Shown: one piece after another, positions 16,279-41,270 of the stretch
Layout: every line of letters begins with the position of its first letter
Numbering within the stretch: the stretch's first letter is position 1
Assembly (NCBI GenBank): GCA_017550445.1
Contig: JAFZOV010000021.1
Coordinates: 1-41,586 of the forward strand
From: Fibrobacter sp.
GTDB lineage: Bacteria; Fibrobacterota; Fibrobacteria; Fibrobacterales; Fibrobacteraceae
Reading direction: 5' to 3'
DNA length: 41,586 nucleotides
Made by a program: the position numbers and the translations under genes
Notes under the pieces: model-generated
The model's input: the letters and a program-made list of their open reading frames with translations, nothing else
Told to the model about the DNA's origin: nothing
Databases searched by the model: none

Positions 16279-16289
16279 GGATTAACCTC

Positions 16290-19212: not shown

Positions 19213-19278
19213 TGGACAATGTGTCAATGGAAACCTCTTTTGGGGGTGTCCAAAAGCGCAAGAATGTGGGTAATTTTA
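19213..19278 (+). promoter_or_regulatory. Hemicellulase operator and promoter 1
   Basis: TGGACAATGTGTCAA (19213-19227) is a slightly degenerate copy of the TTGACAANTTGTCAA palindrome. Its centre is 51 bp before TAATTTTA (19271-19278), the -10 shared across the cluster. The -35 position (GTCCAA) is poor, which fits an activator-dependent promoter. It drives the first GH43 gene. Confidence 0.65.
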
Positions 19279-19319
19279 GTCTGTGAAGGTTTGGTGTGTT
19301 TACCTTCTAAGGAGTCCCT

Positions 19320-21590
19320 ATGGCGTTTAGGAATGTTTGGAAATTTTCCGGCCTGAAAAAGGCTACCTGTCTGGTTGCTGGCCTTGCCGCGTTTGGTTTG
19401 GCCGATAACCCTATCTCCACTTACCATTATCTGGCAGACCCGGGTGCTGCCGCCGACGATGATTACTTCTACATCATCACGGACTCCGATGACCCGGCAC
19501 CGGCAAATTCTGACGGTTACAAGATTTATGCGCTCTATGCATTCCGCAGTAAGGATATGCAGAACTGGACCGACTACGGCGTTATTTACGATGCCCGTAA
19601 GGTGAACGGCATTAATGACATTTGGGCTTCTGGTATCGCTGTGCATGACGGCACGTTCTACATCGTGTTCCCCGATGGCGGTGGCGGCGGTATCGGCTAC
19701 ATCAAGGCCCCGGCTATTGACGGTCCGTGGGAAAACGCTGTAGGCAACGGCAAGAGCAAGCTGGTTGGCGGCGCAGGCATTATTGGCTGCGATGGCGTGT
19801 CTTGGTGCTTTGACCCGGGTATCTTTATCGATGATGATGGCACGACCTATGTGACATGGGGTGGTGGCGAAAGCACTAGCCGCCCGAACACCGACAACTT
19901 CGACATCGTGAAGCTGAACGATGCGAAGAACGCCCCTGTGGGTAACGGTTCTCATGTGAAGGTGAACAACTTGCCGACCCGCAAGATGCTCGAAGCGTCT
20001 TACATTCATAAGCATAAGGGTACTTACTACTTCTCGTATAGTACCGGTTGGCAGCAGGGCGCTCCGACGATTGACTACGGTGTTTCTGATAATGTGATGG
20101 GCCCCTACACTTGGAAGGGTACCATTCTCGGAGACCCGAGTATGGACGGCAAGAGCATCAACGGCAACAACAACCACCATGGTATTGCCGAATTCAAGGG
20201 CCATTCCTACGTGGTGTATCATGACCGCCGTATTGCCAAGGGGTACAACGGCCTGGAAGTTATTCCTGCCGATGACGGTAAACCGAACCCGAACGAAGGC
20301 TACCACCGCAGTGTTTCTGTAGACGAAATGTTCTACAATTCTGACGGAACCATTAAGCAGGTGGTTTGCACCAACGAAGGCCCGAAGCAGATCGAAAATT
20401 TTGATCCGTACGATTGGTATCCGGCTCTCACGAGCTCCAAGCAGAAGGGTATCCGTAGCCGCTCTAACTTTGTTCAGGGCAAGAAGGCTGAACATGTGTT
20501 GCTACCGCTTTCTTCTAAGGAAGCGTGGCTCCGCGTGAGTGGTGTTGACTTCGGTACGGCTGCAACGGGATTCACGGTTGAAGCTGCCAGTGTGGCCGAC
20601 GGCAACAAGATTGAAATCCGTACCGGTTCTGCAACGGGAACTCTCGCTGGTACTTGTACCCTCAAGAAAACAGGCAGCAAGAGCTCTTATGTTGAAAACA
20701 AGTGCGAAGTCGAAGGCCTCAAGGGTATTGTAAACCAGTTGTTCCTGGTGTTCAAGGGTTCTCAGGATTCTACCATGGTTATCAAGGCCTGGGGTTTCGA
20801 AGGCAGCGGCACAACTCCGCCTGAACCGCAGAAACCATTCAAGGGTACCGCATTCGCTATTCCGGGTAAGATCGAAATGGAAGACTTCGATATTCCGGGT
20901 ACGGGTCGCGGCGCAGGAATGGATTCCTATAGCGACAACGATTCCGAAGACCATGGTGCCGAAAGCAATGGCGGCAAGAGCTATCGCGAAGGTACAGGTG
21001 TCGATATCTACAAGAAGGCTAGTGGCTATGTAGTGGGTTACAACCAGACTGGCGAATGGCTGGAATATACGGTAAATGTGGCTGCTGCTGGCGATTATAC
21101 GATGTATGCCGCCGTTGCCTCTGCCAATGCGACCTCTAGCTTCCAGCTTTCCATTGATGGTGACAACATTACCGAAGAGGTTGCTGTTCCGCAGGCCACC
21201 TCCGGTGAAGACAACTACGACGAGTACAACAAGGTGAAGGCGAATGTCACGCTCCCTGCCGGTGAACATATTCTCCGCTTTACGGTGACTGGCGACTGGA
21301 TGGACATCGACTATATCAACTTTGTGGCCGGCAAGGACGCCGCTGATTCTGAACCGATCGGTACAACGGCTGTTTCTGCTGACGTAAAGCTGGGTGTTCC
21401 CATGGTTACGAAATTTGACGTGTTTAGCTTAAACGGCAAAAAAATCGCAAGTTTTGTGGCTCATAACATGGCTGAAGCTTCCAAGATTTGGCAGAGCGGA
21501 TCGGTCAAGGGTGCAGAAAAGGTGGAAGGCGTTTGCCTGATCCGTAGCCGAAGTACCGGTGCCGTTGCGAAGGTCCGCTCTATTCGTTAA
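19320..21590 (+). CDS. GH43 glycosidase with two CBM6 modules and FPm-1-type tail (copy 1)
   Basis: This is a 756-residue exported enzyme, signal peptide about residues 1-28. The GH43 five-bladed propeller (to about 360) has the expected triad: base D40 in HYLADPGA, pKa modulator D165 in CFDPGIF and acid E225 in LEASYIHK. Arabinofuranosidase or xylosidase activity on arabinoxylan is likely. A first CBM6 covers about 375-495 (TGFTVEAASVADGNKIEIR) and a second about 513-668 (IPGKIEMEDFDIPG to MDIDYINF). The last 80 residues form a Fibrobacter paralogous tail (FPm-1-type: FDVFSLNGKKIASFVAHNM). It is a tandem paralogue of the next gene. Shine-Dalgarno AAGGAG precedes the start. Confidence 0.93.
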   Translation: MAFRNVWKFSGLKKATCLVAGLAAFGLADNPISTYHYLADPGAAADDDYFYIITDSDDPAPANSDGYKIYALYAFRSKDMQNWTDYGVIYDARKVNGINDIWASGIAVHDGTFYIVFPDGGGGGIGYIKAPAIDGPWENAVGNGKSKLVGGAGIIGCDGVSWCFDPGIFIDDDGTTYVTWGGGESTSRPNTDNFDIVKLNDAKNAPVGNGSHVKVNNLPTRKMLEASYIHKHKGTYYFSYSTGWQQGAPTIDYGVSDNVMGPYTWKGTILGDPSMDGKSINGNNNHHGIAEFKGHSYVVYHDRRIAKGYNGLEVIPADDGKPNPNEGYHRSVSVDEMFYNSDGTIKQVVCTNEGPKQIENFDPYDWYPALTSSKQKGIRSRSNFVQGKKAEHVLLPLSSKEAWLRVSGVDFGTAATGFTVEAASVADGNKIEIRTGSATGTLAGTCTLKKTGSKSSYVENKCEVEGLKGIVNQLFLVFKGSQDSTMVIKAWGFEGSGTTPPEPQKPFKGTAFAIPGKIEMEDFDIPGTGRGAGMDSYSDNDSEDHGAESNGGKSYREGTGVDIYKKASGYVVGYNQTGEWLEYTVNVAAAGDYTMYAAVASANATSSFQLSIDGDNITEEVAVPQATSGEDNYDEYNKVKANVTLPAGEHILRFTVTGDWMDIDYINFVAGKDAADSEPIGTTAVSADVKLGVPMVTKFDVFSLNGKKIASFVAHNMAEASKIWQSGSVKGAEKVEGVCLIRSRSTGAVAKVRSIR

Positions 21591-21607
21591 TTTTTCTAGA
21601 TAAACCA

Positions 21608-21673
21608 TGGACAAATAGTCAATAAAAAGTGCCCCGATGGGCGCTTTTTTGACGTTTTTTGAGGATAGTTTAT
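21608..21673 (+). promoter_or_regulatory. Hemicellulase operator and promoter 2
   Basis: TGGACAAATAGTCAA (21608-21622) is a degenerate palindrome whose centre lies 51 bp before the TAGTTTAT -10 (21666-21673). Between them sits a terminator hairpin (AGTGCCC 21628-21634 with GGGCGCT 21639-21645, then Ts) that probably ends the upstream GH43 transcript. It drives the second GH43 gene and possibly the GH30 gene. Confidence 0.6.
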
Positions 21674-21716
21674 TCCTAAGAAGGTTTGGTGTGTTTTGTC
21701 CTTCTGAGGAGTCCTT

Positions 21717-23978
21717 ATGGATTACAGGAATGTTTGGAAACGTTTCGGTCTTAAAAAGGCTGTTTGTATGGTTGCGGGGCTTGCCGCGTTTGGCTTGGCC
21801 GACAACCCGATTTCTGCTTATCACTACCTGGCTGACCCGGGTGCCGCTTCTGACGACACGTATTTCTACGTGATTACCGACTCTGATGATCCGGCAGTAG
21901 CAAATGCCACCGGCTATGATATTAAGGCCTTGTACGGATTCCGTACAAAGGATATGAAGAACTGGACCGACTTCGGCATTATTTATGATGCCCGCAAGGT
22001 TGACGGTATCGGTGATATCTGGGCTTCCGGTATTGCGGTGAACCCCAAGGACGGCAGACTCTATATAGTGTTCCCCGATGGCGGTGGTGGCGGTATCGGC
22101 CTCATTGGCGCCGACAGCATTGCCGGCCCCTGGACAAACCCTGTTACGGGTAACAAGAAGCTCATCAACAACTGGGGTGGCGGTCTCGCGGACTGCGACG
22201 GCATCGGTTGGTGCTTTGACCCGGCAATTTTCTTTGATGACGATGGTCAGGGCTACTTCACTTTTGGTGGCGGTAGCAGCGATAGCCGTCCGGCAGCCGA
22301 CAATAACAACAACATCTTCAATATCTATAAGCTTAACGCCGATATGAAGGGCTTCGATGTAAGCTCCAAGACTGCACTTAAGATTGGCGGTCCGAAGGCG
22401 ATGGAAGCCTCTTATATCCACAAGTACAAAAACAACTACTATCTCTCTTATAGTACTGCTGATTTGCGTATCGCTTACGGTATGTCGAGTAACCCCATGG
22501 GTCCCTATACCTATAAGGGTATCTTTATGGGTAACCCCAACATTGGCGGCCAGAACATCAATGCGAACAACAATAACCACCATGGCATTGCAGAATTCAA
22601 GGGCCACTGGTATGTCGCTTACCATGATCGCCGCATCGCGAATGGTTACGATGGCCTCGAAAAGATTCCTGCCGAAGACGGCCAGGCGAATCCGAATCCA
22701 GCTTATCACCGTAGCGTGAGCGTCGATGAATTTACTTACGCTGCCGATGGTTCCATGAACTCGCTGACCTTCACCAAGGAAGGCCCGAAGCAGATTGAAA
22801 ACTTCGATCCGTATGACTGGTATCCGGCACTCACGAGTTCCAAGCAGCTGCATATCCGCAGCCGTTCCAACTGGGCTCCGGGCAAGGTTGCCGAACACTT
22901 ACTGCTCCCGCTTTCGACCAAGGAATCCTGGATTCGCGTGAGTGGCGTGGACTTCGGTACTGCAGCGACTGGCTTTACCGTGCAGGCTGCAAGCGCTGCC
23001 GACGGCAACAAGATTGAAATCCGCACCGGTTCTGCAAGCGGTACTTTGGCTGGTACTTGTACCCTCAAGAATACCGGTAACAAGTCGACGTTTGCAGAAA
23101 CTTCTTGCGAAGTCACGGGACTCAAGGGCATTGTGGAACAGGTGTTCCTGGTGTTCAAGGGCTCTCAGGATTCTACCATGGCAATCAAGGCCTGGGGCTT
23201 CGAAGGCAGCGGTACCACTCCGCCGACTCCGCAGACTCCTTATGGCGGCAAGGCATGGGCTATTCCTGGTGCAATTCAGGCTGAAAACTTTGACGAACCG
23301 GGTACGGGCCGCGGTGGCGATGTCGATTCCTATAACGACAGCGATTCTGAAAACCGTGGCGATAGCGACTACCGCGAAGGTACCGGCGTAGACCTTTACA
23401 AGAAGGCTTCGGGAGTTGCCGTGGGTTACAACACCGAAGGTGAATGGCTTGAATACACCATTAACGTGGCCGAAGCGGGCGATTACACGATTTATGCAGC
23501 TGTGGCTGCTGCGGGTTCTACCTCCAGCTTCAAGTTCAGCGTCGGTGGCAAGGACATTACCGAAGAAATCTCGGTTTCGGCAGCATCTTCCGGCGAAGAC
23601 AACTATGATGACTTTAACAAGGTGAAGGCTAATGTGACGCTCGCTGCGGGCGAACAGGTCTTGAGACTCACCGTTGTCGGCTCCTGGTTCGATATCGACT
23701 ACTTCAATATCGAAAAGGGCAAGGATGCCGCAGATTCTTACCCGATTGGCACGACTGCTGTTTCTGGCAAGATTAAGTTGAATACGACAATGGTTTCGAA
23801 GTATGACGTGTTCAGCCTAGATGGCAAGAAGGTTGCAAGCTTTGTTGCTCATAGCATGGACGAAGCAAGCAAGCTTTGGAAGAGTGGTTCTGTTAAGGGT
23901 ACAGAAAAGGCAAGTGGAGTTTGCCTGATCCGTAACCGTAGCAACGGCATGGTTGCAAAGGTGCGTGCAAACCGATAG
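21717..23978 (+). CDS. GH43 glycosidase with two CBM6 modules and FPm-1-type tail (copy 2)
   Basis: This is a 753-residue exported enzyme, close in sequence along its length to the preceding GH43. Its signal peptide ends near LAAFGLA. Catalytic residues line up at D40 (HYLADPGA), D168 (CFDPAIF) and E230 (MEASYIHK). CBM6 modules lie at about 378-500 and 514-665, with a Fibrobacter tail from about 675 (YDVFSLDGKKVASFVAHSM). The second CBM6 differs from that of copy 1 and is nearer to the one in the third GH43 gene, which suggests domain exchange. A tandem duplication with split substrate preference on arabinoxylan is the simplest reading. Confidence 0.93.
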   Translation: MDYRNVWKRFGLKKAVCMVAGLAAFGLADNPISAYHYLADPGAASDDTYFYVITDSDDPAVANATGYDIKALYGFRTKDMKNWTDFGIIYDARKVDGIGDIWASGIAVNPKDGRLYIVFPDGGGGGIGLIGADSIAGPWTNPVTGNKKLINNWGGGLADCDGIGWCFDPAIFFDDDGQGYFTFGGGSSDSRPAADNNNNIFNIYKLNADMKGFDVSSKTALKIGGPKAMEASYIHKYKNNYYLSYSTADLRIAYGMSSNPMGPYTYKGIFMGNPNIGGQNINANNNNHHGIAEFKGHWYVAYHDRRIANGYDGLEKIPAEDGQANPNPAYHRSVSVDEFTYAADGSMNSLTFTKEGPKQIENFDPYDWYPALTSSKQLHIRSRSNWAPGKVAEHLLLPLSTKESWIRVSGVDFGTAATGFTVQAASAADGNKIEIRTGSASGTLAGTCTLKNTGNKSTFAETSCEVTGLKGIVEQVFLVFKGSQDSTMAIKAWGFEGSGTTPPTPQTPYGGKAWAIPGAIQAENFDEPGTGRGGDVDSYNDSDSENRGDSDYREGTGVDLYKKASGVAVGYNTEGEWLEYTINVAEAGDYTIYAAVAAAGSTSSFKFSVGGKDITEEISVSAASSGEDNYDDFNKVKANVTLAAGEQVLRLTVVGSWFDIDYFNIEKGKDAADSYPIGTTAVSGKIKLNTTMVSKYDVFSLDGKKVASFVAHSMDEASKLWKSGSVKGTEKASGVCLIRNRSNGMVAKVRANR

Positions 23979-24080
23979 GTTTCCCATAAACACATCCAAC
24001 CAGGAGGACACCCTCGAGTGGGGGTGCCCTTCCTTTGGGAAAGAGCTCTGGTGGAGAACAGAGATCATAAGGAGTTAAAG

Positions 24081-26165
24081 ATGAGTGTAAAATTGGTGAA
24101 GGGATTAGGTGTCGCCATTGGGATGGCCGGCATCTGGAGCATGGTTTCTGCGTCGACAGTGAATGTCGATGTGACCGATGAACACCAGGTCATCCGTGGT
24201 TTCGGTGGCATGGTGCATAACCAGTGGCAGGGCGGTGGGGGCCTTTCTGAAGCCGATGCCAAGCTTGCCTTTGGTACGGGCGATGGCCAGATTGGCCTGA
24301 ATACGCTGCGTATTCCGGTGTATGCGAATTCTAGCGACTTCAATAAGGAAGTGCAGGCGGCAAAGTATGCGAAGGCTGTTGCCGGTGATGACTTTATTCT
24401 GTATGCAACGCCGTGGACTTCGCAGTATGCGGGCGCGAACCAGCACATCGCTGCGTCTAATTACCAGAAATATGTGGACCACTTGAACGAATTCACTGCA
24501 TACATGAAAAACCAGGGTGTTCCCCTGTATGCAATTTCTATCAGTAACGAACCGGACTGGTGCCACGAATGGGCTTGCTGGACTGCCGATGAAATCTATA
24601 GCTTTACTAAGAATTACGCCGATCAGATGCGCAAGAACGGCACCAAGGTGATTTCGACGGAATCGTTCGCTTATCAAAAGAACCTTTATGACAAAGTGCT
24701 GAACGATGCGAATGCCCTCAAGAACTGGGATATTCTCGGTGCGCACTTCTATGCAAGCGACAGGAACACTGCCGATAGCTGGTTCCAGTATTCTCTTGCA
24801 GACCAGAAGAAAGTGGAACGTTGGATGACGGAACACTATACTGAAAGTCAGGGTAGCGGTAACGACTGGCGTACGATTCGCAATACGGGTGACCAAGCGA
24901 ATCAGAACAAGCGCGATACCGTGAACGCTATGGATGTTGGTTATGAAATTCACCGTGCCATGGTGGTGGGTAACTTCAATCAGTATACCTGGTGGTATAT
25001 TCGTCGTTGCTACGGCCTGATTATGGAAAAGGACTTCGGCAACAAGCTTTCTATTCCGCAGAACGAAATCGGCAAGGTTTCCAAGCGCGGTTACGTGCTT
25101 TCCCAGTTCGCCCGCTTTGTCCGTCCGGGTGCAGTCCGCGTGGGTGCAACGGCAAAACCCGAAGCAAACCTTTTCGCTTCTGCCTACAAGAGTGCTGGTG
25201 GCGACTCCGTGATCGTGGTGCTCGTGAACCGTGACTACAAAAACGACAAGGAAGTGACTATCAAGGTGCAGGGCGCCGATGTTCAGACCTTCCACATGTA
25301 CACCACTAGCGAAACGAAGAATGCCAAGGACGAAGGCGAAGTCGAAGTCAAGAATGGCTCCGTGACGATTAAGATGACGTCTGGTGGTACTAATTTCAAG
25401 GACTGCATCGTGACTCTCGTGGGTGTTGGCACTCCTGCTGAACCTATTCCGCGCGAACCGTTCGGCGGCAAGGTTGCCGAAATTCCGGGCAAGATTGAAG
25501 CCGAAAACTTCGATGTTCCGGGTACGGGTAAGGAAAACAAGACTTACAGCGATGCTGATTCTGATAACCATTCTTGCACCGACGAAGGCAAGGAAGCTGA
25601 ATGCACTGATTACCGCGAAGGTACGGGTGTCGACATTTACAAGAAGGCAACCGGGTATGTTGTGGGCCATAACCAGGCTGGTGAATGGCTGGAATACACC
25701 GTGAACGTGAAGGCTGCCGGTGAATACACGATGACCGCTTCTGTCGCGACGAGTAATACCGATGCGGGCTTTACGCTTTCCGTGGATGGCGACGCCGTTG
25801 CTGAAGTTCCTGTTTCGGGAACGAGCTGGAATGATTTCAAGGATGTAACTGCCAAGGTGAAGCTCCCTGTCGGCGAACATATTCTCCGCTTGGAAGTGAC
25901 GGGCTCCTGGTTCGATATTGACTATATGAAATTCGAAGGCAATTGCGCCAATTGCGCTACAACGATTGCTGGTGTCCGTATGAATATGCCGACTGAAGCG
26001 GAAAACTACCGCATTTTCGACATGAACGGTAGCTACCTCGGTATGGTGCGTGCTACGGGTATGCAGGAACTCCGCAAGAATGCGGCTGGTCTTGTGCAGC
26101 GTGGCGGTGTTTATCTCGCCAAGTCTGTTGCCGGCAAGACCATGCGCCTGCAGGTGATCAAATAA
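24081..26165 (+). CDS. GH30 (subfamily 8-like) endoxylanase with CBM6 and FPm-1-type tail
   Basis: This is a 694-residue exported enzyme starting at the ATG at 24081, which has AAGGAG upstream and begins a signal peptide (MSVKLVKGLGVAIGMAGIWS). The (beta/alpha)8 barrel has the acid/base E157 in YAISISNEPDW and the nucleophile E251 in WMTEHYT. The opening GFGGMVHNQW and the LNTLRIPVY strand match GH30_8 endoxylanases, which often need a 4-O-methyl-glucuronic acid branch. A small beta-sandwich follows, then CBM6 at about 463-618 (IPGKIEAENFDVPG) and a Fibrobacter tail from about 625 (YRIFDMNGSYLGMVRATGM). No palindrome precedes it, so it may share the transcript of the second GH43. Confidence 0.92.
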   Translation: MSVKLVKGLGVAIGMAGIWSMVSASTVNVDVTDEHQVIRGFGGMVHNQWQGGGGLSEADAKLAFGTGDGQIGLNTLRIPVYANSSDFNKEVQAAKYAKAVAGDDFILYATPWTSQYAGANQHIAASNYQKYVDHLNEFTAYMKNQGVPLYAISISNEPDWCHEWACWTADEIYSFTKNYADQMRKNGTKVISTESFAYQKNLYDKVLNDANALKNWDILGAHFYASDRNTADSWFQYSLADQKKVERWMTEHYTESQGSGNDWRTIRNTGDQANQNKRDTVNAMDVGYEIHRAMVVGNFNQYTWWYIRRCYGLIMEKDFGNKLSIPQNEIGKVSKRGYVLSQFARFVRPGAVRVGATAKPEANLFASAYKSAGGDSVIVVLVNRDYKNDKEVTIKVQGADVQTFHMYTTSETKNAKDEGEVEVKNGSVTIKMTSGGTNFKDCIVTLVGVGTPAEPIPREPFGGKVAEIPGKIEAENFDVPGTGKENKTYSDADSDNHSCTDEGKEAECTDYREGTGVDIYKKATGYVVGHNQAGEWLEYTVNVKAAGEYTMTASVATSNTDAGFTLSVDGDAVAEVPVSGTSWNDFKDVTAKVKLPVGEHILRLEVTGSWFDIDYMKFEGNCANCATTIAGVRMNMPTEAENYRIFDMNGSYLGMVRATGMQELRKNAAGLVQRGGVYLAKSVAGKTMRLQVIK

Positions 26166-26182
26166 GTTAAAACTGTGGAGTG

Positions 26183-26212
26183 AGCCCGCATAAAAAGCGG
26201 GCTACTTTTATC
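26183..26212 (+). terminator. Terminator after the GH30 gene
   Basis: AGCCCGC (26183-26189) pairs with GCGGGCT (26197-26203) around an A-rich loop and is followed by a T-rich run. It separates the GH30 gene from the first esterase gene, which must then have its own promoter. Confidence 0.75.
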
Positions 26213-26275
26213 TTATTTTACGTATAAAAGTAAAAACAATTGTGTATTTTTGAACTATGCAAAAAGGAGTGGATT

Positions 26276-27832: not shown

Positions 27833-27866
27833 ACCCTAAAAGCTAAAGTAAATTTTAATTAACAAG

Positions 27867-27890
27867 AACCCGCTTTTTGGGCGGGTTTTT
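27867..27890 (+). terminator. Terminator after the first CE6 gene
   Basis: AACCCGC (27867-27873) pairs with GCGGGTT (27881-27887) and runs into TTTTT. It lies 34 bases after the stop codon. Confidence 0.8.
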
Positions 27891-27913
27891 CGCTTATTTT
27901 GGCATAACTCCTA

Positions 27914-27979
27914 TTGACTATTTATCCATAAGTTTCGGCTTTTTTTACATAAAAAAGCCAGTTTTTTTGGATAACTTTA
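27914..27979 (+). promoter_or_regulatory. Hemicellulase operator and promoter 3
   Basis: TTGACTATTTATCCA (27914-27928) is a degenerate palindrome. Its reverse complement differs from the copy at 21608-21622 at one position. Its centre is 51 bp before TAACTTTA (27972-27979), and the -35 region is poor. A start near 27984 leaves room for the AAGGAG before the ATG at 28000. Confidence 0.6.
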
Positions 27980-27999
27980 AGGTACAAAAGGAGTGTGTT

Positions 28000-29661
28000 A
28001 TGGATCTCAAAAAAGTATCGGAATTTTTGACCCCGGCTTTGTGGCTGGTTGGCGGGCTGATGATGCTCGCGACAATCGCCAATGCGGCGCCGAACCCCAA
28101 TTTCCATATTTATATTGCTTATGGCCAGTCGAATATGGCCGGTAACGGTGAAATCGTCCCTTCTGTGGACCAGGCTAAGGATCCCAAGAATTTCTTGATG
28201 ATAGCCTCCCATACGGCAAATGCCAGCAGCCGTAGCGGCAGCACCACCCAGTCGATCAAGACTGGCGAATGGTATCCTGCAATTCCGCCGATGTTCCATC
28301 CTTTCGAAAACCTCTCCCCGGCGGACTACTTCGGCCGTGCCATGGTAGATTCCCTGCCGGGCGTTACCGTGGGTATTATCCCGGTGGCTATCGGTGCTGT
28401 AAGTATCAAGGCTTTCGACAAGGACCAGTACCAGGCTTACTTCAGCACTGCAGCAAGCTATATTCAGAACTGGGCTAAGGATTACGATTCCAACCCGTAC
28501 CAGAGAATTGTGGACTTGGGCAAAAAGGCTAAGGAAGTTGGCGTCATCAAGGGTGTTATTTTCCACCAGGGTGAAACCGATGGATCTGGCACCGAATGGC
28601 AGAACAATGTGTACAAGACCTACAAGGACATTATTAACGCCCTTGACTTGGACGAAAACGAAGTGCCTTTTGTAGCCGGCGAAATGATGAATGACCCCAC
28701 GGGTAACTCCAGCCAGGGTAGCTGCTGCAGCTCCAAGAACGGCGGTATTGCCCAGCTTAAGAGCAAGTTCAAGAAGTTTGGTTTGGCCTCTTCTCAGGGC
28801 TTGAAGGGTAACGGCAAGGACCCCTACCACTTTGGCCGTGATGGTGTGATTGAACTTGGCCGTCGTTATTGTTCCGAAATGCTCAAGCTGATTGACAAGA
28901 CTATTGACCCCAATGCTCCGGAAGTGAACTTGGTTGATCCGAGCCAGTCTACCGTTCCCGATGAACCGCCTGAGGAATATGGCCCGTATGGCGAAGGCCC
29001 TGCAAAGATTCCTGGCACTATTGAAGTCGAGGAATACAACAAGGGCGGTGCTGACAAGGCCTATTACGATTTGAGCAAGGGCAACGAAGGCGGCAAGTTC
29101 CGCAAGAACGATGTGGACATTTATCAGCCGAACATGGGCTTGGTCGTTGGCCACTGCCAGAAGGGCGAATGGCTCAAGTACACCGTGAATGTGGTGACCG
29201 ATGGCGAGTATGAAATTTCTGCACTCGTGGCTAGTGACAATACGACCGGTAGCTTTGTCCTCTATATGGATGACGAACGTATCGGTGACGAAATGGCAAG
29301 CGAAGGCAAAGGATTTACCACGTTCACCGAAGTGAGCGGCGGCAAGGCCACCCTGAAGGCTGGCAAACATGAACTCAAGCTCGAAATTACCAATGACTGG
29401 ATCGATATCGACAATATTGTATTCAAGGCTTCTTCTACGATGTCTGTTGCTCAGGGCTTGAACCTGATGACCGAAGCTGAAAGCAACTTCAACTTGTTCG
29501 ATATGCAGGGCAAGCATGTGGCGAGCTTCAAGGCTGCTAGCATGGAGGCGGCAGTCCGTATGGTCAAGGATGGCGTCAAGGGTATCCGTCAGGGAGTGTA
29601 TTTGGTTCGCTCTGCCGGCAAGATGGGCGTCAAGCAGAAGGTGGTGACCTATGAAAAGTAA
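28000..29661 (+). CDS. CE6 acetyl xylan esterase with CBM6 and FPm-1-type tail (second)
   Basis: This is a 553-residue exported esterase starting at the ATG at 28000, which is supported by AAGGAG, a signal peptide to about residue 29 and the upstream promoter. Upstream in-frame starts lie before the -10 and are rejected. Active-site residues are S44 in AYGQSNMAG, H189/E192 in FHQGET and D274/H277 in GKDPYHF. A divergent CBM6-like module spans about 335-477 (IPGTIEVEEYNKGG), followed by a Fibrobacter tail (FNLFDMQGKHVASFKAASM). The architecture matches the F. succinogenes FSUAxe6B type of CE6 enzyme, from which the tail module FPm-1 was named. It deacetylates xylan. Confidence 0.93.
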   Translation: MDLKKVSEFLTPALWLVGGLMMLATIANAAPNPNFHIYIAYGQSNMAGNGEIVPSVDQAKDPKNFLMIASHTANASSRSGSTTQSIKTGEWYPAIPPMFHPFENLSPADYFGRAMVDSLPGVTVGIIPVAIGAVSIKAFDKDQYQAYFSTAASYIQNWAKDYDSNPYQRIVDLGKKAKEVGVIKGVIFHQGETDGSGTEWQNNVYKTYKDIINALDLDENEVPFVAGEMMNDPTGNSSQGSCCSSKNGGIAQLKSKFKKFGLASSQGLKGNGKDPYHFGRDGVIELGRRYCSEMLKLIDKTIDPNAPEVNLVDPSQSTVPDEPPEEYGPYGEGPAKIPGTIEVEEYNKGGADKAYYDLSKGNEGGKFRKNDVDIYQPNMGLVVGHCQKGEWLKYTVNVVTDGEYEISALVASDNTTGSFVLYMDDERIGDEMASEGKGFTTFTEVSGGKATLKAGKHELKLEITNDWIDIDNIVFKASSTMSVAQGLNLMTEAESNFNLFDMQGKHVASFKAASMEAAVRMVKDGVKGIRQGVYLVRSAGKMGVKQKVVTYEK

Positions 29662-29807: not shown

Positions 29808-29873
29808 TTGACAATTTGTCAAAAGAACTTGGGACCCATTGGGGCTTTTTTGCCCATTTTTAGGGTAATTTTA
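29808..29873 (+). promoter_or_regulatory. Hemicellulase operator and promoter 4
   Basis: TTGACAATTTGTCAA (29808-29822) is a perfect copy of the palindrome. Its centre is 51 bp before TAATTTTA (29866-29873). A short C/G-rich hairpin with a T-run lies between them and the -35 region is poor. It drives the third GH43 gene and perhaps GH27 beyond it. Confidence 0.75.
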
Positions 29874-29924
29874 AGATGAAGAATTATGCATGGGCGGTGG
29901 TGCGCCCTCAAAAGGAGTATAATC

Positions 29925-34174: not shown

Positions 34175-34218
34175 TAACGTTAAGTAATTCTCTCTAAAAA
34201 TTCTCCTAAGAAAAAGAG

Positions 34219-34248
34219 GCTCCGCTAGCGATAGCGGGGCTTTTTTTT
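34219..34248 (+). terminator. Terminator after the GH27 gene
   Basis: GCTCCGCTA (34219-34227) pairs with TAGCGGGGC (34232-34240), including one G-U pair, around GCGA, followed by eight Ts. Confidence 0.85.
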
Positions 34249-34272
34249 GTACGAAAATCGCGCTTTCAGCTT

Positions 34273-34342
34273 TTGAAATTTCTGCAAAAGTATTTGGTTT
34301 TGTAGGGGGTATTTTTCGCATTGCGGGATTTATCTTTATAAT
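34273..34342 (+). promoter_or_regulatory. Degenerate operator and promoter of the GH127 gene
   Basis: TTGAAATTTCTGCAA (34273-34287) matches the perfect operator at 11 of 15 positions. Its centre is 51 bp before TATCTTTA (34331-34338), the same spacing as in the clear cases. A separate TATAAT lies at 34337-34342. The spacing match is the main support, so this is a weaker case. Confidence 0.4.
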
Positions 34343-34376
34343 GGTGAACTGAGTGTTGGAAAAAGGATGGTATAAG

Positions 34377-37055
34377 ATGTTTGGAATCAATAAAAAACGG
34401 TTGGCTTGCGTGGCCCTTGCTGTGGTTGGAGGTCTTGCCACTCAAGGGTTTACGCAAGACCTGCTTTACCCTGATATGTTTTCGCTGGGCGATGTCCAGT
34501 TGCTTGGCGGCCCGCTTAAGGACCGTCAGGATTTGAACGTAGAAACGTTGCTTGCCTACGATACAGACAAATTAATTGCTCCGTTCTACGAAGAAGCGGG
34601 CATGAAGCCTAAAGCCAGCAAGTTTTCGAACTGGGCGGGCCTCGATGGCCACGTTTTAGGCCATTACTTGAGTGCGCTTGCCATGCAATATGCGGCAACG
34701 GGCGACGAAGAAATCAAGCAACGCCTGGAATATGTTTTGAGTGAACTCAAGACGATTCAAGACCAGAATTCCAAAGACAACAACTTCAAGGGCTACCTGA
34801 GTGGCGTACCGAACGGAAAGCAGATGTGGCTCAAGTTCAAGAGCGGAAACGCTGGCGCACAGAATGGTTATTGGGTGCCTTGGTATAACATTCACAAGAC
34901 TTTTGCAGGCCTTCGCGACGCTTACATTTATGCAGGCTACGAACAGGCAAAAACGATGTTCCTCGCCCTTTGCGACTGGGGCCTCACTATTACGGGTGGC
35001 CTCAATGACAACGCTATGGAATCCATGCTCGGCACGGAACACGGTGGCATGGCCGAAGTCTATGCCGATGCTTATGCGCTTACCAAACAAGACAAGTATT
35101 TGAAAGAGGCTAAGCGCTGGTCGCACAAGTGGCTTTTGAATGCCATGGCGGCAAGCAACGATAACCTCACCAATGTGCACGCCAATACGCAGGTGCCTAA
35201 AGTGGTGGGCTTTGCTCGTATTGCAGAACTCACCAACGATGCAACTTATGTGAAGGGCTCCGAGTACTTCTGGGACCGCGTGGTGAATAAGCGCAGCATT
35301 GCTATCGGTGGCAATAGCATTTCGGAACATTTCCCCTCTTTTGATAACCATAAGAAGTACGTGGAAGAACGTGAAGGACCGGAATCTTGCAACACGTACA
35401 ATATGCTTAAGCTGACCGAGCGCCTGTTCAATATGGATCATAGCGCCAAGCAGGCAGATTTCTACGAACGCGCTCTCTTTAACCATATTCTTTCGACGAT
35501 TCACCCCAAGCACGGTGGCTACGTGTACTTTACGCCTGCGCGCCCGCGCCATTACCGCGTGTATTCTAAGGTGAATGCGGCCATGTGGTGCTGCGTGGGT
35601 TCGGGCATGGAAAACCCCACCAAGTATTCGCAGTTTATTTATACCAAAGATGGTGACAATTTGTACGTAAACCTCTTTGCGGCATCAAGCTTGAACTGGC
35701 GCGACAAAAAGGTTCAAATCAAGCAAGAAACCGCATTCCCCAAGGGTGAATCGGCAAAGTTCACCGTGACAGGTAGCGGCAGCTTTGATTTCAAGGTACG
35801 TCACCCGTACTGGGTAAAAGAAGGCGAATTCAAGGTAATTGTAAACGGCGATACCGTCGTGAAAAAGTCTGACCCTTCGAGCTATGTTTCTGCAGGTAAA
35901 TCTTGGAAGACCGGTGACGTAATCGAGGTGCTGTTCCCCATGTACACGCATGTGGAAGAACTCCCGAATGTGTCTGATTATGTGGCGCTTTTGCATGGCC
36001 CGATTGTGCTCTCTGCGAAAACGGGAACCGCTAACTTGAACGGCCTCGTGGCCGATGATGGCCGCTGGAGTCATATTGCCTCGGGTGCGCTCGAATCGCT
36101 TGATCAGGCCCCTATGCTTGCGAGCAAGAAAGAAGATATTCCCTCAAAGGTGACTCCTGTAGCAGGCGAGCCCATGCACTTTAAGGCTCCGTACCTGTTC
36201 GCAAATCAGAAGGATGCGAACCTGCTGCTGGAACCCTTCTACGAAGTACACGATGCCCGCTACATGATGTACTGGATGGTGCTTACGGACCCCACGATTC
36301 TGGAGCGCCTGAAAAAGGAACAAGAAGAAGCCTTGGCGCTTGACGAAAAGACCATCGACAAGGTGGCCCCCGGCGAGCAGCAGCCTGAAGCAGACCATAA
36401 GATGCAGGAACGCAATTCTACCTCGGGCACGCACCAGGGCGAATTCTACCGCGATGCTGGCAAGTGCAGCGACGGTGATGGTGGTCTCATTAGCTACGAA
36501 TTCGAAACCAACAGCGAAGATTCCTTGAGTCTCATGGTTCGCTACTGGGGCAACGAAGGCTGCACACGCGTATTTGATATCAAGATCGACGACGAAAAGC
36601 TTGTGACTGAGACGATCTCGAACCGCTGGAAAAAGGACGAATTCGTGAATGTGACTTACCCGATTCCAGATAATATGGTAAAGGGCAAGAAGCTTGTGCG
36701 GATTTCGTTTACGGCAAATTCCGGCATGGTCGGCGGCATTTACAGCGTGCGCTTGCTGCGTAACAAGCCAAAGCCCGAAACGACGACGATTGCCACGAAG
36801 ACTGTCGCACGGCCCGATTTGCGGGCGCGAGTTTACGGCGGTGAATTGCAGATCGAGGCCGGTGCAGCACTTTCGCAGGGCTATACCGCACGAATCTACG
36901 GCATGAACGGTCGCTTGGTCAAGTCGCAGCCGCTTGCGGCGGGGCAGTCGAGTTTCAGCATCGGCCTTGGCGACATGCATGACGGAATGTACATCTTGAA
37001 AATCCAGCATGGCGGCTTTAGCTACGCGTCAACGATTTTCCGGAAGTCTGAATAG
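34377..37055 (+). CDS. GH127 beta-L-arabinofuranosidase-like enzyme with secretion-type tail
   Basis: This is an 892-residue exported protein starting at the ATG at 34377 (signal to about residue 26), with the DUF1680 / GH127 fold. The (alpha/alpha)6 barrel opens with MFSLGDVQLLGGPL. The Zn-Cys site is present: E336 and C338 in REGPESCNTYN, and C405/C406 in MWCCVGSGMENP, where the second cysteine pair supplies the nucleophile in HypBA1. A C-terminal beta domain (about 675-796) holds an extra disulfide-like pair. The last 85 residues (IYGMNGRLVKSQ, GMYILKIQHGG) resemble the type IX secretion sorting domain and are unlike the FPm-1 tails nearby. It releases L-arabinose. Confidence 0.92.
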   Translation: MFGINKKRLACVALAVVGGLATQGFTQDLLYPDMFSLGDVQLLGGPLKDRQDLNVETLLAYDTDKLIAPFYEEAGMKPKASKFSNWAGLDGHVLGHYLSALAMQYAATGDEEIKQRLEYVLSELKTIQDQNSKDNNFKGYLSGVPNGKQMWLKFKSGNAGAQNGYWVPWYNIHKTFAGLRDAYIYAGYEQAKTMFLALCDWGLTITGGLNDNAMESMLGTEHGGMAEVYADAYALTKQDKYLKEAKRWSHKWLLNAMAASNDNLTNVHANTQVPKVVGFARIAELTNDATYVKGSEYFWDRVVNKRSIAIGGNSISEHFPSFDNHKKYVEEREGPESCNTYNMLKLTERLFNMDHSAKQADFYERALFNHILSTIHPKHGGYVYFTPARPRHYRVYSKVNAAMWCCVGSGMENPTKYSQFIYTKDGDNLYVNLFAASSLNWRDKKVQIKQETAFPKGESAKFTVTGSGSFDFKVRHPYWVKEGEFKVIVNGDTVVKKSDPSSYVSAGKSWKTGDVIEVLFPMYTHVEELPNVSDYVALLHGPIVLSAKTGTANLNGLVADDGRWSHIASGALESLDQAPMLASKKEDIPSKVTPVAGEPMHFKAPYLFANQKDANLLLEPFYEVHDARYMMYWMVLTDPTILERLKKEQEEALALDEKTIDKVAPGEQQPEADHKMQERNSTSGTHQGEFYRDAGKCSDGDGGLISYEFETNSEDSLSLMVRYWGNEGCTRVFDIKIDDEKLVTETISNRWKKDEFVNVTYPIPDNMVKGKKLVRISFTANSGMVGGIYSVRLLRNKPKPETTTIATKTVARPDLRARVYGGELQIEAGAALSQGYTARIYGMNGRLVKSQPLAAGQSSFSIGLGDMHDGMYILKIQHGGFSYASTIFRKSE

Positions 37056-37153
37056 TCGTGTCATCCTGAGTGGAACGCAGTGGAATCTCTTTGACCACTT
37101 GGCAACTTGTTGCCTTAGTGGGCATGATCCTCGAATGGGGAGAAGGATCTCCC

Positions 37154-37218
37154 TTGACAACTTGTCAATGGAAACACTCTCTAGTGCGTTCCTTTTAGGG
37201 CGGCAAAAGGTAATTTTA
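37154..37218 (+). promoter_or_regulatory. Hemicellulase operator and promoter 5
   Basis: TTGACAACTTGTCAA (37154-37168) is a perfect palindrome with its centre 50 bp before TAATTTTA (37211-37218). A weak hairpin (CACT/AGTG) followed by TTTT lies in between. It drives the GH5 gene. Confidence 0.75.
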
Positions 37219-37254
37219 AATTGGTGTGAGTGGTGGTTTAAAGGTAGGTTTTTT

Positions 37255-38397
37255 ATGGTGTTTGGTTCTAAGGTCAGGCGCATTGCCTGTATCGCGTTGG
37301 CTGCTACAGTCTTTTCTGCGGTGAATTCGTTCGCCGTTACCAGTCAGTTCCGTGGCGTCAACTGGGCCGACAAGCGCGACAATTTCGTCTCTGACGTGCT
37401 CGTGCTTTCGGGCCTCAGCCTCTCTGACAATTATCAGTCTGCATCGGTTGTGGCAGAGCGCGTTATTGGGCAGTTTCAGGAACTGCTTGGCACGAACAGC
37501 GTGCGTATGCCGGTAAACGAGCCCACTGTTCTCAATGCTTTCGATATGTATTCGGGTGCGCTTGACGTTGCGCTCAAGCATGGCCGCTTGGTCATGGGCT
37601 ATTGGGGCCCCTCGCAGCCTTCGGGCCCGAGTAATATGGACAACTGGTGGAAAATGTGGGCCCAACTCGTCGAAAAATACGGTGAACATCCGAACGCCTA
37701 CTTTGAAATCATGAACGAACCGCACATGTACAACAAGGACCAGCTGCGCAATCTGTACGCAACTTGGCTGGAAAAGTTCCCGAATGTGCCGCGCGACCAT
37801 ATTTTGCTCGACGGTTCGGGAATGGCGCAGAACGTGCCCGACATTGCCGATGACCCGCGTTTTGAAGGTTGCCTGTTTGCCGTTCACGAATACACCTTCT
37901 GGAACATGAGTATCAATACCGAAGAAGGCTGGCGTAATAGCTTCAAGTATAAGGTGGGCAAGTATGTTGACCGTACTGTGTGTACAGAATGGGGTGGCGC
38001 AATGAGCCCTGGCGAAAAGGCAGGCGTTCGCTACGACTACATGGATTACAACTCTACTCCGACCAATTACTTTATGGCCTACATTCGCGGTATGTCTGAC
38101 CAGTTGCGCGAATGGGAAATGGGTAGCTTTTACTGGCCGGGCCTGCGCGATGGCGACTGGTACAGCATGACCAAGCGTTCGGGAGAAGGAGCGGACATTA
38201 AGCTCGAAGTCGTGAACCAGTCGGGCCTTGATCGCATGCAACATTCGTGGGCCGACACGGTTGCCGAACCCCAATCAATAAAAAGTGTTCGCAAAAATGT
38301 TCTCAAAAATTCGCAGTACTTGCGCGTCAAAGGAAGCAGGGCCTATATCGAAAAGAACGGCATGCGCTTTGATTTGACCGGACACCGCATTAAATAA
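37255..38397 (+). CDS. GH5 glycoside hydrolase, subfamily uncertain
   Basis: This is a 380-residue exported enzyme. The ATG at 37255 follows the promoter and opens a signal peptide (FGSKVRRIACIALAATVFS). Earlier in-frame starts lie upstream of the promoter and are rejected. Catalytic residues: acid/base E155 in YFEIMNEPHMY and nucleophile E245 in VCTEWGGAMSPG. The opening FRGVNWADKRDN and the VRMPVNEPTV segment are GH5-like, but I cannot place the subfamily. Candidates are enzymes acting on xylan, mannan or arabinoxylan. It has no CBM6 and ends with IEKNGMRFDLTGHRIK, shared with GH27. Confidence 0.88.
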   Translation: MVFGSKVRRIACIALAATVFSAVNSFAVTSQFRGVNWADKRDNFVSDVLVLSGLSLSDNYQSASVVAERVIGQFQELLGTNSVRMPVNEPTVLNAFDMYSGALDVALKHGRLVMGYWGPSQPSGPSNMDNWWKMWAQLVEKYGEHPNAYFEIMNEPHMYNKDQLRNLYATWLEKFPNVPRDHILLDGSGMAQNVPDIADDPRFEGCLFAVHEYTFWNMSINTEEGWRNSFKYKVGKYVDRTVCTEWGGAMSPGEKAGVRYDYMDYNSTPTNYFMAYIRGMSDQLREWEMGSFYWPGLRDGDWYSMTKRSGEGADIKLEVVNQSGLDRMQHSWADTVAEPQSIKSVRKNVLKNSQYLRVKGSRAYIEKNGMRFDLTGHRIK

Positions 38398-38408
38398 GCT
38401 ATTTGCTA

Positions 38409-38474
38409 TTGATAACTTGTCAATGCGAACTCCCTAAATGGGGGTTCATTTTTTATGCATAAAAGGTAATTTTC
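38409..38474 (+). promoter_or_regulatory. Hemicellulase operator and promoter 6
   Basis: TTGATAACTTGTCAA (38409-38423) has one mismatch to the palindrome. Its centre is 51 bp before TAATTTTC (38467-38474). A terminator hairpin (AACTCCC 38428-38434 with GGGGGTT 38440-38446, then Ts) lies in between and ends the GH5 transcript. Confidence 0.7.
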
Positions 38475-38505
38475 TTATTGGTGTGGAAAAAAAGTGAGGT
38501 TTCTT

Positions 38506-41136
38506 ATGGGTATTTCTAAAATACTTTCAAAAGTGGGTATCTGCTCCCTGGCTTTTGCCGGAGCGTCTCTGGCCGCGACTCAGGCAACATTTTATGTAGC
38601 TCCGGATGGAAGCGATTCTAATAAGGGTACCAAGGAGGCTCCCTTCAAAACCATTACGCAGGCGCAGAAGGCTGTGCGTGCCATTAATGGTTCTATGACC
38701 GGTGACATTGAAGTCATTCTTCGTGAAGGCACTTACGCGCTCCCCTCGACGGTGAATTTTACCGAGGCCGATGGCGGTAAAGATGGCCATTATGTGCGCT
38801 ATAAAGCTTACGAAGGCGAAATGCCTCTCATCACGGGCGGCATGGGCGTTACTGGTTGGACCATTCACGATGAAAAGAACAACATCTGGAAAGCCGAAGG
38901 CGTCGATGGTCGATTCCGTCAGCTGTATGTGAACGGCAAGAAGGCTGTTCGCGCTTGCTTCCCCAACGTGGTTGCTGCAGATGAGAAAGGCTCGGGCTCC
39001 TTTGACCACGATTTCGTGCGTCTTACGAAAGTGGACTCTACGGGTCGTGCCTTTGATGTTTCTGCGGACTACGTCAAGAATATCAAGAACATTGAAGATG
39101 TCGAAATCCACCTGATGATTGCCTGGTCCGAAAACATCTTGCGTTTGGAAAAGGCCGAGGTGAACGGTGGTACTGCAAAGCTCATTCCCAAGGATCCTGA
39201 ACGTACCAAACTATTCCACCGCGCATACCCCATGCTCGGTACAGCCTTCATGAGCGATCCCCCCAAGCAGCAGGTTTTCTATCTGGAAAACTCCTACGAT
39301 TTGCTTGACGCTCCGGGTGAATGGTACCTGGATGAAAAGAATCAAACGCTTTACTACAAGCCCCGTTCCGGCGAAAGCATGGGCACGGCCAATGTGGTTG
39401 CTCCCCGCCTCAATACCTTGTTCAATGTCTTAGGTAAAGATACCAAGAACAAAGTGGGCTATATGTCTTTCGAAGGCCTGAACTTTGCTCATTCCAACTA
39501 TACTCGCCCCAGCGAAGAAGGTTTCCTGGATTTGCAGGCAGGGAACTTTAATGTGGATGTCCTTCCGGATCCTGGTCGCGGAAACTGGGAAAAGCTGAAT
39601 AGTAACCAGTATTTGCTTTGGCGCCCCGATGCAGGTTTCCGTGTCGAAAACGCTCACCATTTCTTGGTCAAGAACTGCACCTTTACGCAGATGGCGGCAA
39701 CTGGTCTTGACTTTGTGTCGGGCACGAATGACGACGTCATCGAAGGCAACGTGTTCTATGAAAATGGCGCTGCAGGCATTATGCTTGGCAAGTTCTATCA
39801 GGACTCCACAACCGAAATTCATATCGCCTATAATCCGAGCGACAAGGAAGAAATCAGTACCCGCGATACCATTCGCAACAACCTCGTGACCAACGTGACC
39901 AACGAACACCAGGGTGCTGTGGGTATCGGTGCTGGCTATCCGCGTTATGTGGTGATTGAAAATAACGAAATTTCATACACTTATTATTCCGGTATTTCGG
40001 TGGGCTTTGGCTGGACCAAAGATCAAACAGCCATGACTAACAACCATATCAACAAAAATAACATTCACCATATTTCTCGCTTGCTTTGCGATTCCGGCCC
40101 GATCTATACGCTTTCGAACCAGGGTACCGGTAGCGAAATCAAGGAAAACTACATGCACGATTACGGTGCCTCCAAGTGGTCTGACTACTGGGTATTGCCC
40201 ATTTACTTGGATGAAGGCTCTAGCGGTTTCACGGTTGAAAATAATTCTTTTAGGAATTCTCCGAGTGGCGTAGGCCGCAATGCGGCGGGGCAGTACACTG
40301 AACGCAACAACGGCGGCTATATCGAATCTGTCGCGCAGGCTGCAGGACTCCAGGGTGAATTCAAAAATATCGGTGAAAAAATCAACAGCATTCCGCTGCC
40401 TGACTTTAATGGTGCTGTGACCCAGGAACCGTTCAAGGTTGGCTTCAGCATTCCGGGTGCCATTCAGGCCGAAGACTACGATGTGGGCGGACAGAGCGTC
40501 TCGTTCTATGACAAGGACTTCGTGAATGAAGGTAACGTCTATCGCGAAGACGGCGTGGATGTCGTTGGCCTCGGCTGCTCTGATACGCTCAATACTCAGG
40601 ACTGCAAGGGCTACGCTATCGGTTACACGCAGGCCGGTGAATGGGTGGAATACTCAGTGAACGTAATTCTCGCTAGCAAGTACGTGTTCCGTGCCAATGT
40701 GGCTAACGGACTTGAAGGCGGCAGCTTCCAGCTGTTCCTCGATGGCAAGGCAATCACCGATACTATCGTGGTGCCGCAGGGCGAAGACTGGAGTACTTAT
40801 GGATTTGTAGAAGGTGAGACTGAAAAAATTGAAAAGGGAGACCATGTGCTGCGCATCCTGTTTATAGGCAGCTACACGAACCTTGACTGGATTCAGTTCG
40901 CGCTCACCAAGGAAGAACTTACCGGAATTCGCAATGTAGCGTATAACGTGAACTTTATGCCGACGGCGGATCGTTCGCTTAAGGTGTACAACGCAAGCGG
41001 ACGCTTTATGGGTGGCGTCGAGCAGCGTGCAGGTCTCGCTCTCACCGAAACGCTGAAGGCCGCCGGATTCGCCCGCGGAATCTACATCGTGCGCGGATCC
41101 AGCCTCGCCAAAACCATCCGCGTGCAGCTTAAGTAG
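38506..41136 (+). CDS. Right-handed beta-helix glycosidase with CBM6 and FPm-1-type tail
   Basis: This is an 876-residue exported protein. The ATG at 38506 has GTGAGG upstream. An in-frame GTG twelve bases earlier is less likely. After the signal (to about residue 23) comes FYVAPDGSDSNKGTKEAPF, the usual opening of parallel beta-helix enzymes of the GH141 and GH120 kind, then repeated helix coils with N- and G-rich turns (NNDVIEGNVFYENGAAGIM-like). GH141 members include fucosidases and a xylanase, GH120 are beta-xylosidases, so the activity is open. A CBM6 lies at about 646-798 (IPGAIQAEDYDVGG) and an FPm-1-type tail at about 805-876 (LKVYNASGRFMGGVEQ). Confidence 0.87.
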   Translation: MGISKILSKVGICSLAFAGASLAATQATFYVAPDGSDSNKGTKEAPFKTITQAQKAVRAINGSMTGDIEVILREGTYALPSTVNFTEADGGKDGHYVRYKAYEGEMPLITGGMGVTGWTIHDEKNNIWKAEGVDGRFRQLYVNGKKAVRACFPNVVAADEKGSGSFDHDFVRLTKVDSTGRAFDVSADYVKNIKNIEDVEIHLMIAWSENILRLEKAEVNGGTAKLIPKDPERTKLFHRAYPMLGTAFMSDPPKQQVFYLENSYDLLDAPGEWYLDEKNQTLYYKPRSGESMGTANVVAPRLNTLFNVLGKDTKNKVGYMSFEGLNFAHSNYTRPSEEGFLDLQAGNFNVDVLPDPGRGNWEKLNSNQYLLWRPDAGFRVENAHHFLVKNCTFTQMAATGLDFVSGTNDDVIEGNVFYENGAAGIMLGKFYQDSTTEIHIAYNPSDKEEISTRDTIRNNLVTNVTNEHQGAVGIGAGYPRYVVIENNEISYTYYSGISVGFGWTKDQTAMTNNHINKNNIHHISRLLCDSGPIYTLSNQGTGSEIKENYMHDYGASKWSDYWVLPIYLDEGSSGFTVENNSFRNSPSGVGRNAAGQYTERNNGGYIESVAQAAGLQGEFKNIGEKINSIPLPDFNGAVTQEPFKVGFSIPGAIQAEDYDVGGQSVSFYDKDFVNEGNVYREDGVDVVGLGCSDTLNTQDCKGYAIGYTQAGEWVEYSVNVILASKYVFRANVANGLEGGSFQLFLDGKAITDTIVVPQGEDWSTYGFVEGETEKIEKGDHVLRILFIGSYTNLDWIQFALTKEELTGIRNVAYNVNFMPTADRSLKVYNASGRFMGGVEQRAGLALTETLKAAGFARGIYIVRGSSLAKTIRVQLK

Positions 41137-41160
41137 AAGATTACCTCTTTGTTAAAACCG

Positions 41161-41190
41161 AAAAACTCCACCAAGCTGGTGGAGTTTTTT
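41161..41190 (+). terminator. Terminator after the beta-helix gene
   Basis: AAAAACTCCACCA (41161-41173) and TGGTGGAGTTTTT (41177-41189) form a perfect 13-bp inverted repeat that ends in a T-run. Confidence 0.9.
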
Positions 41191-41204
41191 CGTTATCTAA
41201 TTCA

Positions 41205-41270
41205 TTGATAAAATGACAACACAAAATGCCCCCAAAGGCGGTTTTTTGCCTGTTTTGGGGGTTAATTTTA
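41205..41270 (+). promoter_or_regulatory. Hemicellulase operator and promoter 7
   Basis: TTGATAAAATGACAA (41205-41219) is a degenerate palindrome centred 51 bp before TAATTTTA (41263-41270). GCC-CCCAAA-GGC followed by six Ts lies between them. It drives the GH95 gene. Confidence 0.6.

Follow-up and report, generated by a model that had tools for sequence, protein, structure and literature searches.

The polysaccharide utilisation loci of Bacteroidetes are controlled by SusR, hybrid two-component systems and extracytoplasmic function (ECF) sigma factors, and the -10 element of Bacteroidota promoters is TANNTTTG. At class I promoters, of which lac of Escherichia coli is the standard example, the activator CRP binds a site centred near -61.5. 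Fibrobacter is a major rumen cellulose degrader. How transcription of its cellulase genes is controlled is called an unanswered question in the available part of PMC3079729, and its hemicellulase genes are described as being under tight coordinate control, on the basis of RNA-seq, in that of PMC6204037. Here we analysed a 41,586-nt (41.6 kb) stretch of Fibrobacter sp. DNA (contig JAFZOV010000021.1; hereafter the window) that carries a hemicellulase gene cluster, a 15-bp palindrome recurring upstream of its genes, and the gene of a DUF4423/TIGR02147 protein, P0001, just upstream of the cluster. The palindrome marks a regulon that is real and whose regulator is very probably P0001, likely activating from about -62. 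As a whole, we judge it probable that P0001 is a self-regulated activator bound near position -62 at promoters that lack a -35 element, placed under a CRP-type protein and driving a regulon of CBM6 hemicellulases.

The promoters of this locus resemble the class I promoter of CRP at lac in having a palindrome near -61.5, a fixed spacing and a weak or missing -35 element. They differ in the protein family and in the operator, and their start positions are predicted ones. Their -10 element resembles the Bacteroidota element, unlike the TATAAT of the E. coli CRP-lac type. In common with the Bacteroidetes loci, the hemicellulase cluster here is linked to a regulator and to a lipoprotein whose fold is of a glycan-binding type; however, the scans of the window matched neither a membrane sensor nor an ECF factor nor a SusC/D pair in the cluster, and the regulator proposed here is soluble, with helix-turn-helix (HTH)-like and winged-helix-like parts. 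The TIGR02147 and DUF4423 library entries give no function, whereas the present analysis assigns one member an operator, a set of targets and, probably, a mode of action. For hemicellulase control, the evidence points to a single gene, a single operator, a set of predicted targets and a CRP-type input upstream, and it suggests a possible function for a protein family without an assigned role that has dozens of copies in Fibrobacter genomes. A first-pass annotation of this DNA knew of no description of the regulon, and we likewise found no account of the operator, or of DUF4423/TIGR02147 as a regulator, in the literature searched, including the available parts of PMC3079729, PMC6851124, PMC12546842, PMC8406330 and PMC6204037. 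The term "transcriptional regulator" was absent from the available text of PMC6204037 when it was searched.

Predicted operator sites in the window

The first-pass annotation had placed the palindrome before seven enzyme genes, and all seven copies were recovered at those positions, the ones at 29808 and 37154 being perfect (Table 1). Ten palindromes with at most three mismatches were present in the window, where 2.6 were expected; those at 6623, 6764 and 37091 lie outside the seven. A scoring matrix built from 189 sites, none of them taken from the window, gave as its top eight the seven sites (29.8–43.5) and 16850–16864 (26.9). The best score after these was 13.4, from 27914 read in reverse, and the maximum over 15 Markov shuffles was 11.4. 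The site at 16850–16864 is a strong one that the first-pass annotation, which named no regulator, overlooked; it lies beyond the interval given there and precedes the DUF4423/TIGR02147 gene just upstream of the cluster.

The proposed distance of 50–51 nt between the palindrome centre and the -10 element was found at all seven sites, the first T of TANNTTW lying 43 nt past the palindrome end in six and 42 nt past it at 37154. At 27914, the listed open reading frame of the second CE6 gene opens at 27877, upstream of the operator, and the gene start was placed near 28000. The degenerate eighth copy at 34273 keeps the spacing, as had been noticed, but its score of 8.1 is below the shuffle maximum and is not significant in the window; a better copy precedes the probable GH127 gene of a relative (locus L228, score 24.2). 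Similarly, the GH30, first CE6 and GH27 genes do lack a site in the window (best scores -12, -21 and -18), but their counterparts in relatives have one, namely the first-CE6 and GH27 genes of genome G013 (L165:1062, 8757) and probable GH30 genes, for example in G008 (L237:9211). A further palindrome-like copy, TTGACCACTTGGCAA, lies at 37091–37105 with two mismatches, 63 nt 5′ of the perfect operator at 37154, and is not among the top matrix scores.

Conservation of the spacing and promoter type

The spacing was then counted in 77 loci (61 from Fibrobacter and 16 from Bacteroidota) that were picked solely for encoding a relative of the GH43 enzyme at 29886. In the 61 Fibrobacter loci, TANNTTW was present at 42–44 nt on one side of 19/19, 50/50, 91/110 and 61/198 distinct palindromes with 0, 1, 2 and 3 mismatches to TKGACAANTTGTCMA, respectively. 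Counted by orientation, the numbers were 20/38, 48/96, 87/208 and 58/366, where other offsets predict 0.5, 0.8, 2.5 and 2.9; these fractions reach a maximum near one half because each palindrome is read in both orientations. The 16 Bacteroidota loci lacked the arrangement (oriented matches 0/0, 0/2, 2/19 and 1/111). In ten whole Fibrobacter genomes, the one-mismatch palindrome TTGACAANTTGTCAA occurred 2–7 times per genome, compared with 0–2 times for the reversed control. The spaced pattern, with up to three mismatches, was found in 60 of 61 genomes of the genus, at 0–15 per strand against 0–3 for the control.

An extended consensus was drawn from 194 sites that had been selected for having TANNTTW at this distance. 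It consists of CYATTGACAANTTGTCAATRG, a weak A-rich extension and a GRTANNTTW element whose first T is at +58, counted from the first base of the palindrome; offset 43 is the main class, and 42 and 44 are minor ones. The matrix sites (189–194) and 30 genome-scan loci are not independent, because promoters of orthologs in close relatives are among the former and the latter were found through the spaced pattern itself, and the per-site count above therefore uses the protein-chosen loci only. Terminator-like hairpins between operator and -10 were seen in 22 of the 194 spacers, for example in L004 and L077, compared with 1% of shuffles, so that in places the operator sits inside the 3′ end of the upstream gene, before the terminator of that preceding gene.

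The -35 positions, which had been called poor, proved to be so throughout: TTGACA was matched at five or six positions in none of the 194 sites (spacers of 16–18), compared with four after spacer shuffling. Such boxes with at least five matches were present in 13 of 46 other TIGR02147 promoters, a comparison biased towards those others because the best of several candidate -10 elements was taken there. With the transcript start presumed about 12 nt past the first T of the -10 element, the palindrome would be centred near -62, and the proposal of an activator-type site there is favoured by the genus-wide fixed spacing, the absent -35 and the mostly secreted polysaccharide-degrading enzymes encoded downstream in the loci that were scored. 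We infer activation itself from these features, and it is likely. The suggestion that the motif might be equally common before unrelated genes was addressed with 53 TIGR02147 promoters of two genomes, where only two carry the motif within one mismatch, both of them promoters of orthologs of the proposed regulator, and this did not refute the regulon; a full genome-wide count for unrelated genes was not made.

The proposed regulator and its neighbourhood

P0001 scored above both curated cut-offs (TIGR02147, 197.6 against 50 bits; DUF4423, 99.5 against 30 bits). Its structure model has HTH-like and winged-helix-like parts, and HigA-like and ArsR-like folds were recognised in it. Sequence searches of the PDB, made with the profile of the regulator and with the lipoprotein described below, gave no significant match. 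The operator was present in all 71 regulator promoters examined, 69–117 nt before the start, with 67 copies exact to TKGAYAANNNRTCMA, three with one mismatch and one with two. This consensus was drawn once 49 of these promoters had been seen, and it then held in another 21 orthologs whose identity goes down to 53%. TANNTTW at 42–44 nt followed in 67 of the 71 (57/57 nearer and 10/14 distant promoters).

An ortholog with 81–99% identity was found in 61 of 63 Fibrobacter genomes searched (18/19 and 43/44), the next paralogs having at most 49%. G047 is the sole genome of the 61 in the genus without a spaced site, and the sole one of those that lacks the ortholog. Across the wider family, the best match to the regulator fell at 53–99% in 44 of 61 genomes. 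There the bare 15-mer did not separate genomes with the ortholog from those without it; with the -10 spacing required and one locus taken per genome, 4 of 8 genomes with the ortholog had a match and 0 of 13 without it (1 of 14 counting G010, which is considered below).

The regulator gene overlaps a lipoprotein gene, whose product P0002 has a C-terminal domain that matched CBM11 1v0a with a Foldseek E value of 6e-8 and a TM-score of 0.77 by target. A relative of the lipoprotein came next after the regulator in all 17 compared loci, and the order regulator, lipoprotein, GH43 was kept in 6/6 long loci, with a second GH43 gene next in five. In each of 14 distant loci, the regulator was followed by a match to the lipoprotein (partial in L278 and L279, about 1 kb on), and in nine of them by a GH43. 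Moreover, a same-strand operator lay downstream of 13 of 14 ortholog copies in 13 genomes with listed sites, 1.3–6.3 kb from the lower coordinate of the gene.

Taken as a mechanism, the CYATTGACAANTTGTCAATRG palindrome would be the operator on which the product of the DUF4423/TIGR02147 gene (16942–17805) acts. A homodimer would bind it some 62 bp upstream of the transcript start and would activate, in class I fashion, promoters with a good -10 (GRTANNTTW) and without a -35, including that of its own gene, which would give positive feedback. Further upstream of the regulator gene, a bound CRP-type protein would relay a global growth-state signal, and the output would be secreted hemicellulases, encoded as a block and mostly bearing CBM6. 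The lipoprotein whose gene accompanies that of the regulator has a CBM11-like fold and may serve to sense or bind glucans on the surface of the cell.

CRP-type sites upstream of the regulator gene

The window has one CRP-type palindrome, upstream of the regulator gene (Table 1), where about one match with at most one mismatch is expected by chance. Across regulator promoters, TGTGAN6TCACA with at most one mismatch was found in 36 of 71, 12 of them exact, compared with 0.7% in Markov controls. A second count at the same threshold gave 12/17 regulator promoters, 6/171 enzyme promoters and 2/285 other upstream regions. In 44 promoters with a site at up to two mismatches, the offset to the operator was -23 in 28 and -34 in five; -44, -32, -64 and -136 occurred twice each, and -53, -18 and -8 once each. 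The offsets -23, -34, -44, -53 and -64 (38 of 44) lie near whole helical turns apart, and the other six do not. A Crp-type HTH was encoded in 8/8 genomes searched, a sample outside which the window's own genome falls, and RETVSR, which we take to be the CRP recognition motif, was found in the Crp proteins of two. These results suggest that a CRP input to the regulator gene is probable.

Predicted target genes and published expression

The window cluster encodes three GH43-CBM6 enzymes, a XynC-like (GH30-type) xylanase, two CE6-like SASA esterases, and GH27, GH127, GH5-like and GH141-type enzymes, the CE6 and GH30 labels being in part presumed. Across ten groups of loci, rather than whole genomes, 104 places scored at least 20, a few of which are reverse readings of other sites. 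The genes downstream encode GH43, CE6, GH27, GH141, GH10, GH2, GH95, GH5 and probable GH30 and GH127 enzymes, together with esterase-CBM and pectate lyase-CBM6 proteins and the regulator itself; one further product is a CotH protein, and another has no Pfam match. For these families, ten proteins were scanned and the remainder identified via the window homolog or the N-terminal letters.

According to the available part of PMC6851124, the Fibrobacter succinogenes S85 genes FSU_2263, 2264, 2269, 2272, 2274, 2288, 2292 and 2293/4, which we equated with the window cluster by family and printed order and not by sequence, are 1.35–1.95 fold higher on cellulose than on glucose, and this rise is attributed there to catabolite repression. 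In the RNA-seq study PMC6204037, as far as its text was available, the CBM6, CE6, GH10 and GH43 families are enriched in common expression clusters, many CBM6 hemicellulases are up at the slowest growth rate, and hemicellulase genes respond jointly to growth rate. In these parts the two papers disagree on the inducing condition. The published S85 data fit the proposed regulon.

Table 1. Predicted regulatory sites and associated genes located in the window.
Feature	Coordinates	Strand	Matrix score	Remarks
CRP-type palindrome TGTGACCGGCGTCACA upstream of regulator gene	16827..16842	+		exact; sole match with at most one mismatch in the window
Putative autoregulatory operator TGGATAAAACGTCCA of DUF4423 gene	16850..16864	+	26.9	
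-10 element TATTTTA of regulator promoter	16908..16914	+		43 nt past operator
Gene of DUF4423/TIGR02147 protein P0001, proposed regulator	16942..17805	+		from profile scores and structure model
Lipoprotein gene, product P0002 with CBM11-like C-terminal domain	17802..19124	+		overlaps regulator gene; CarboxypepD_reg match
Predicted operator of GH43-CBM6 gene 19320	19213..19227	+	43.5	-10 at 19271
Predicted operator of GH43-CBM6 gene 21717	21608..21622	+	39.2	-10 at 21666
Predicted operator of second CE6 gene (start near 28000)	27914..27928	+	36.1	-10 at 27972
Predicted operator, perfect, of GH43-CBM6 gene 29886	29808..29822	+	42.1	-10 at 29866
Degenerate operator of GH127 gene 34353	34273..34287	+	8.1	-10 spacing kept
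Predicted operator, perfect, of GH5-like gene (start near 37255)	37154..37168	+	42.0	spacing 42; -10 at 37211
Predicted operator of GH141-type gene 38494	38409..38423	+	38.9	-10 at 38467
Predicted operator of gene truncated by window end	41205..41219	+	29.8	-10 at 41263

Alternative explanations

Because binding of the palindrome by P0001 is deduced, and because a conserved gene at the head of a cluster may itself be a target, another transcription factor might bind the palindrome, with the DUF4423 gene merely one of its targets. Some observations do weigh against regulation by P0001 as proposed. Genome G010 has operator sites, and in it the regulator ortholog was not found, which would suit a different factor; the search of G010 found no lipoprotein either, and its GH43 matches were weak or partial. 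The CRP step is also challenged, as 35 of the 71 regulator promoters are without a CRP-type site at one mismatch or fewer. However, the operator stands before the DUF4423 gene in every promoter examined, down to 53% protein identity, the model of the protein has two DNA-binding-like parts, and other TIGR02147 genes bear their own, distinct repeated half-sites in their promoters. A different factor therefore appears unlikely, and binding by P0001 is preferred. P0001 might, on the other hand, bind the operator and repress, for instance through RNA polymerase contact or looping, with induction by some signal. Autoregulators are frequently repressors, and sequence alone cannot give the sign of regulation. 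The site lies, however, upstream of the usual polymerase footprint, at a single fixed position and in promoters without a -35, and such an upstream fixed site without a -35 argues for activator dependence. We give repression about the same small chance as a different factor.

Fur boxes have a 7-1-7 symmetry, which the palindrome here matches, and a Fur-family gene (16290–16709) adjoins the regulator gene in the window. Government of the cluster by this Fur-family protein would be in line with the S85 genome paper, the available part of which deems the (hemi)cellulase cluster Fisuc_1762-1804 likely to be under two metal-dependent response regulators (PMC3079729). The Fur gene adjoins zinc-transport genes, however, and it was conserved with the operator-bearing cluster, as a Fur/Zur regulon would have it, in only 4 of 17 loci, all of close relatives whose regulators are 96–98% identical. 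It was not found beside the regulator in the other 13 (five long loci covering 2.5–8 kb upstream and eight short ones covering 1.5 kb), and the operator was retained there. Control by Fur is thus very improbable, and activation by P0001 remains the preferred explanation.

The TIGR02147/DUF4423 family

TIGR02147 proteins are numerous in Fibrobacter, with 19–35 copies per genome in six genomes. In many promoters of other members (L148–L187), paralog-specific half-sites such as GTTGCAT, GTATAAT and GTGTTCT repeat within the promoter, often about 70 nt apart. By eye, the half-sites vary by paralog and match between the orthologs of two genomes, and the recognition-helix residues seem to change alongside. 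The proximal half-site was repeated upstream in 18 of 24 promoters, compared with a permutation mean of 9.3 (P ~1e-4), in a test whose starting word, chosen after looking, was present in only those 24 of 53 promoters. The dyad-only statistic showed no enrichment of the 53 TIGR02147 promoters over 288 other upstream regions (P 0.86), in our opinion because the controls hold terminators. The recurrence of half-sites about 70 nt apart suggests autoregulation with looping, and the promoter data support, short of proof, the view of TIGR02147 proteins as self-regulated transcription factors. We lean slightly towards a broader interpretation, in which the whole family would consist of unrecognised self-regulated factors with operators diversified per paralog, and the hemicellulase member would be the first with an assigned regulon and would couple a growth signal of CRP type with a CBM11-like lipoprotein and positive feedback.

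A general rule of a palindrome 50 nt before TANNTTT was also tried in G013 and G037, around their TIGR02147 genes, and was rejected, as no enrichment was observed. In L007, L004, L028 and L228, another TIGR02147 paralog (MLNINEISDYRD) is found close to hemicellulase genes, and its promoter contains TTGACATTTTTTCAA, a palindrome related to the one studied here.

Other features of the window

A zinc-uptake-like block at 8976–16709 lies beside the hemicellulase cluster and comprises CobW, a TonB-plug receptor, an ABC-3 permease, an ABC ATPase, a ZnuA-like binding protein and the Fur-family regulator. Further upstream, the minus strand at 422–6238 encodes cas2, cas1 and a 1520-aa Cas9-like protein with RuvC_III and HNH domains. 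A Gp49-like/HI1420-type gene pair, toxin-antitoxin-like, is located at 6805–7411, and an Abi_2 domain match at 8426–8833.

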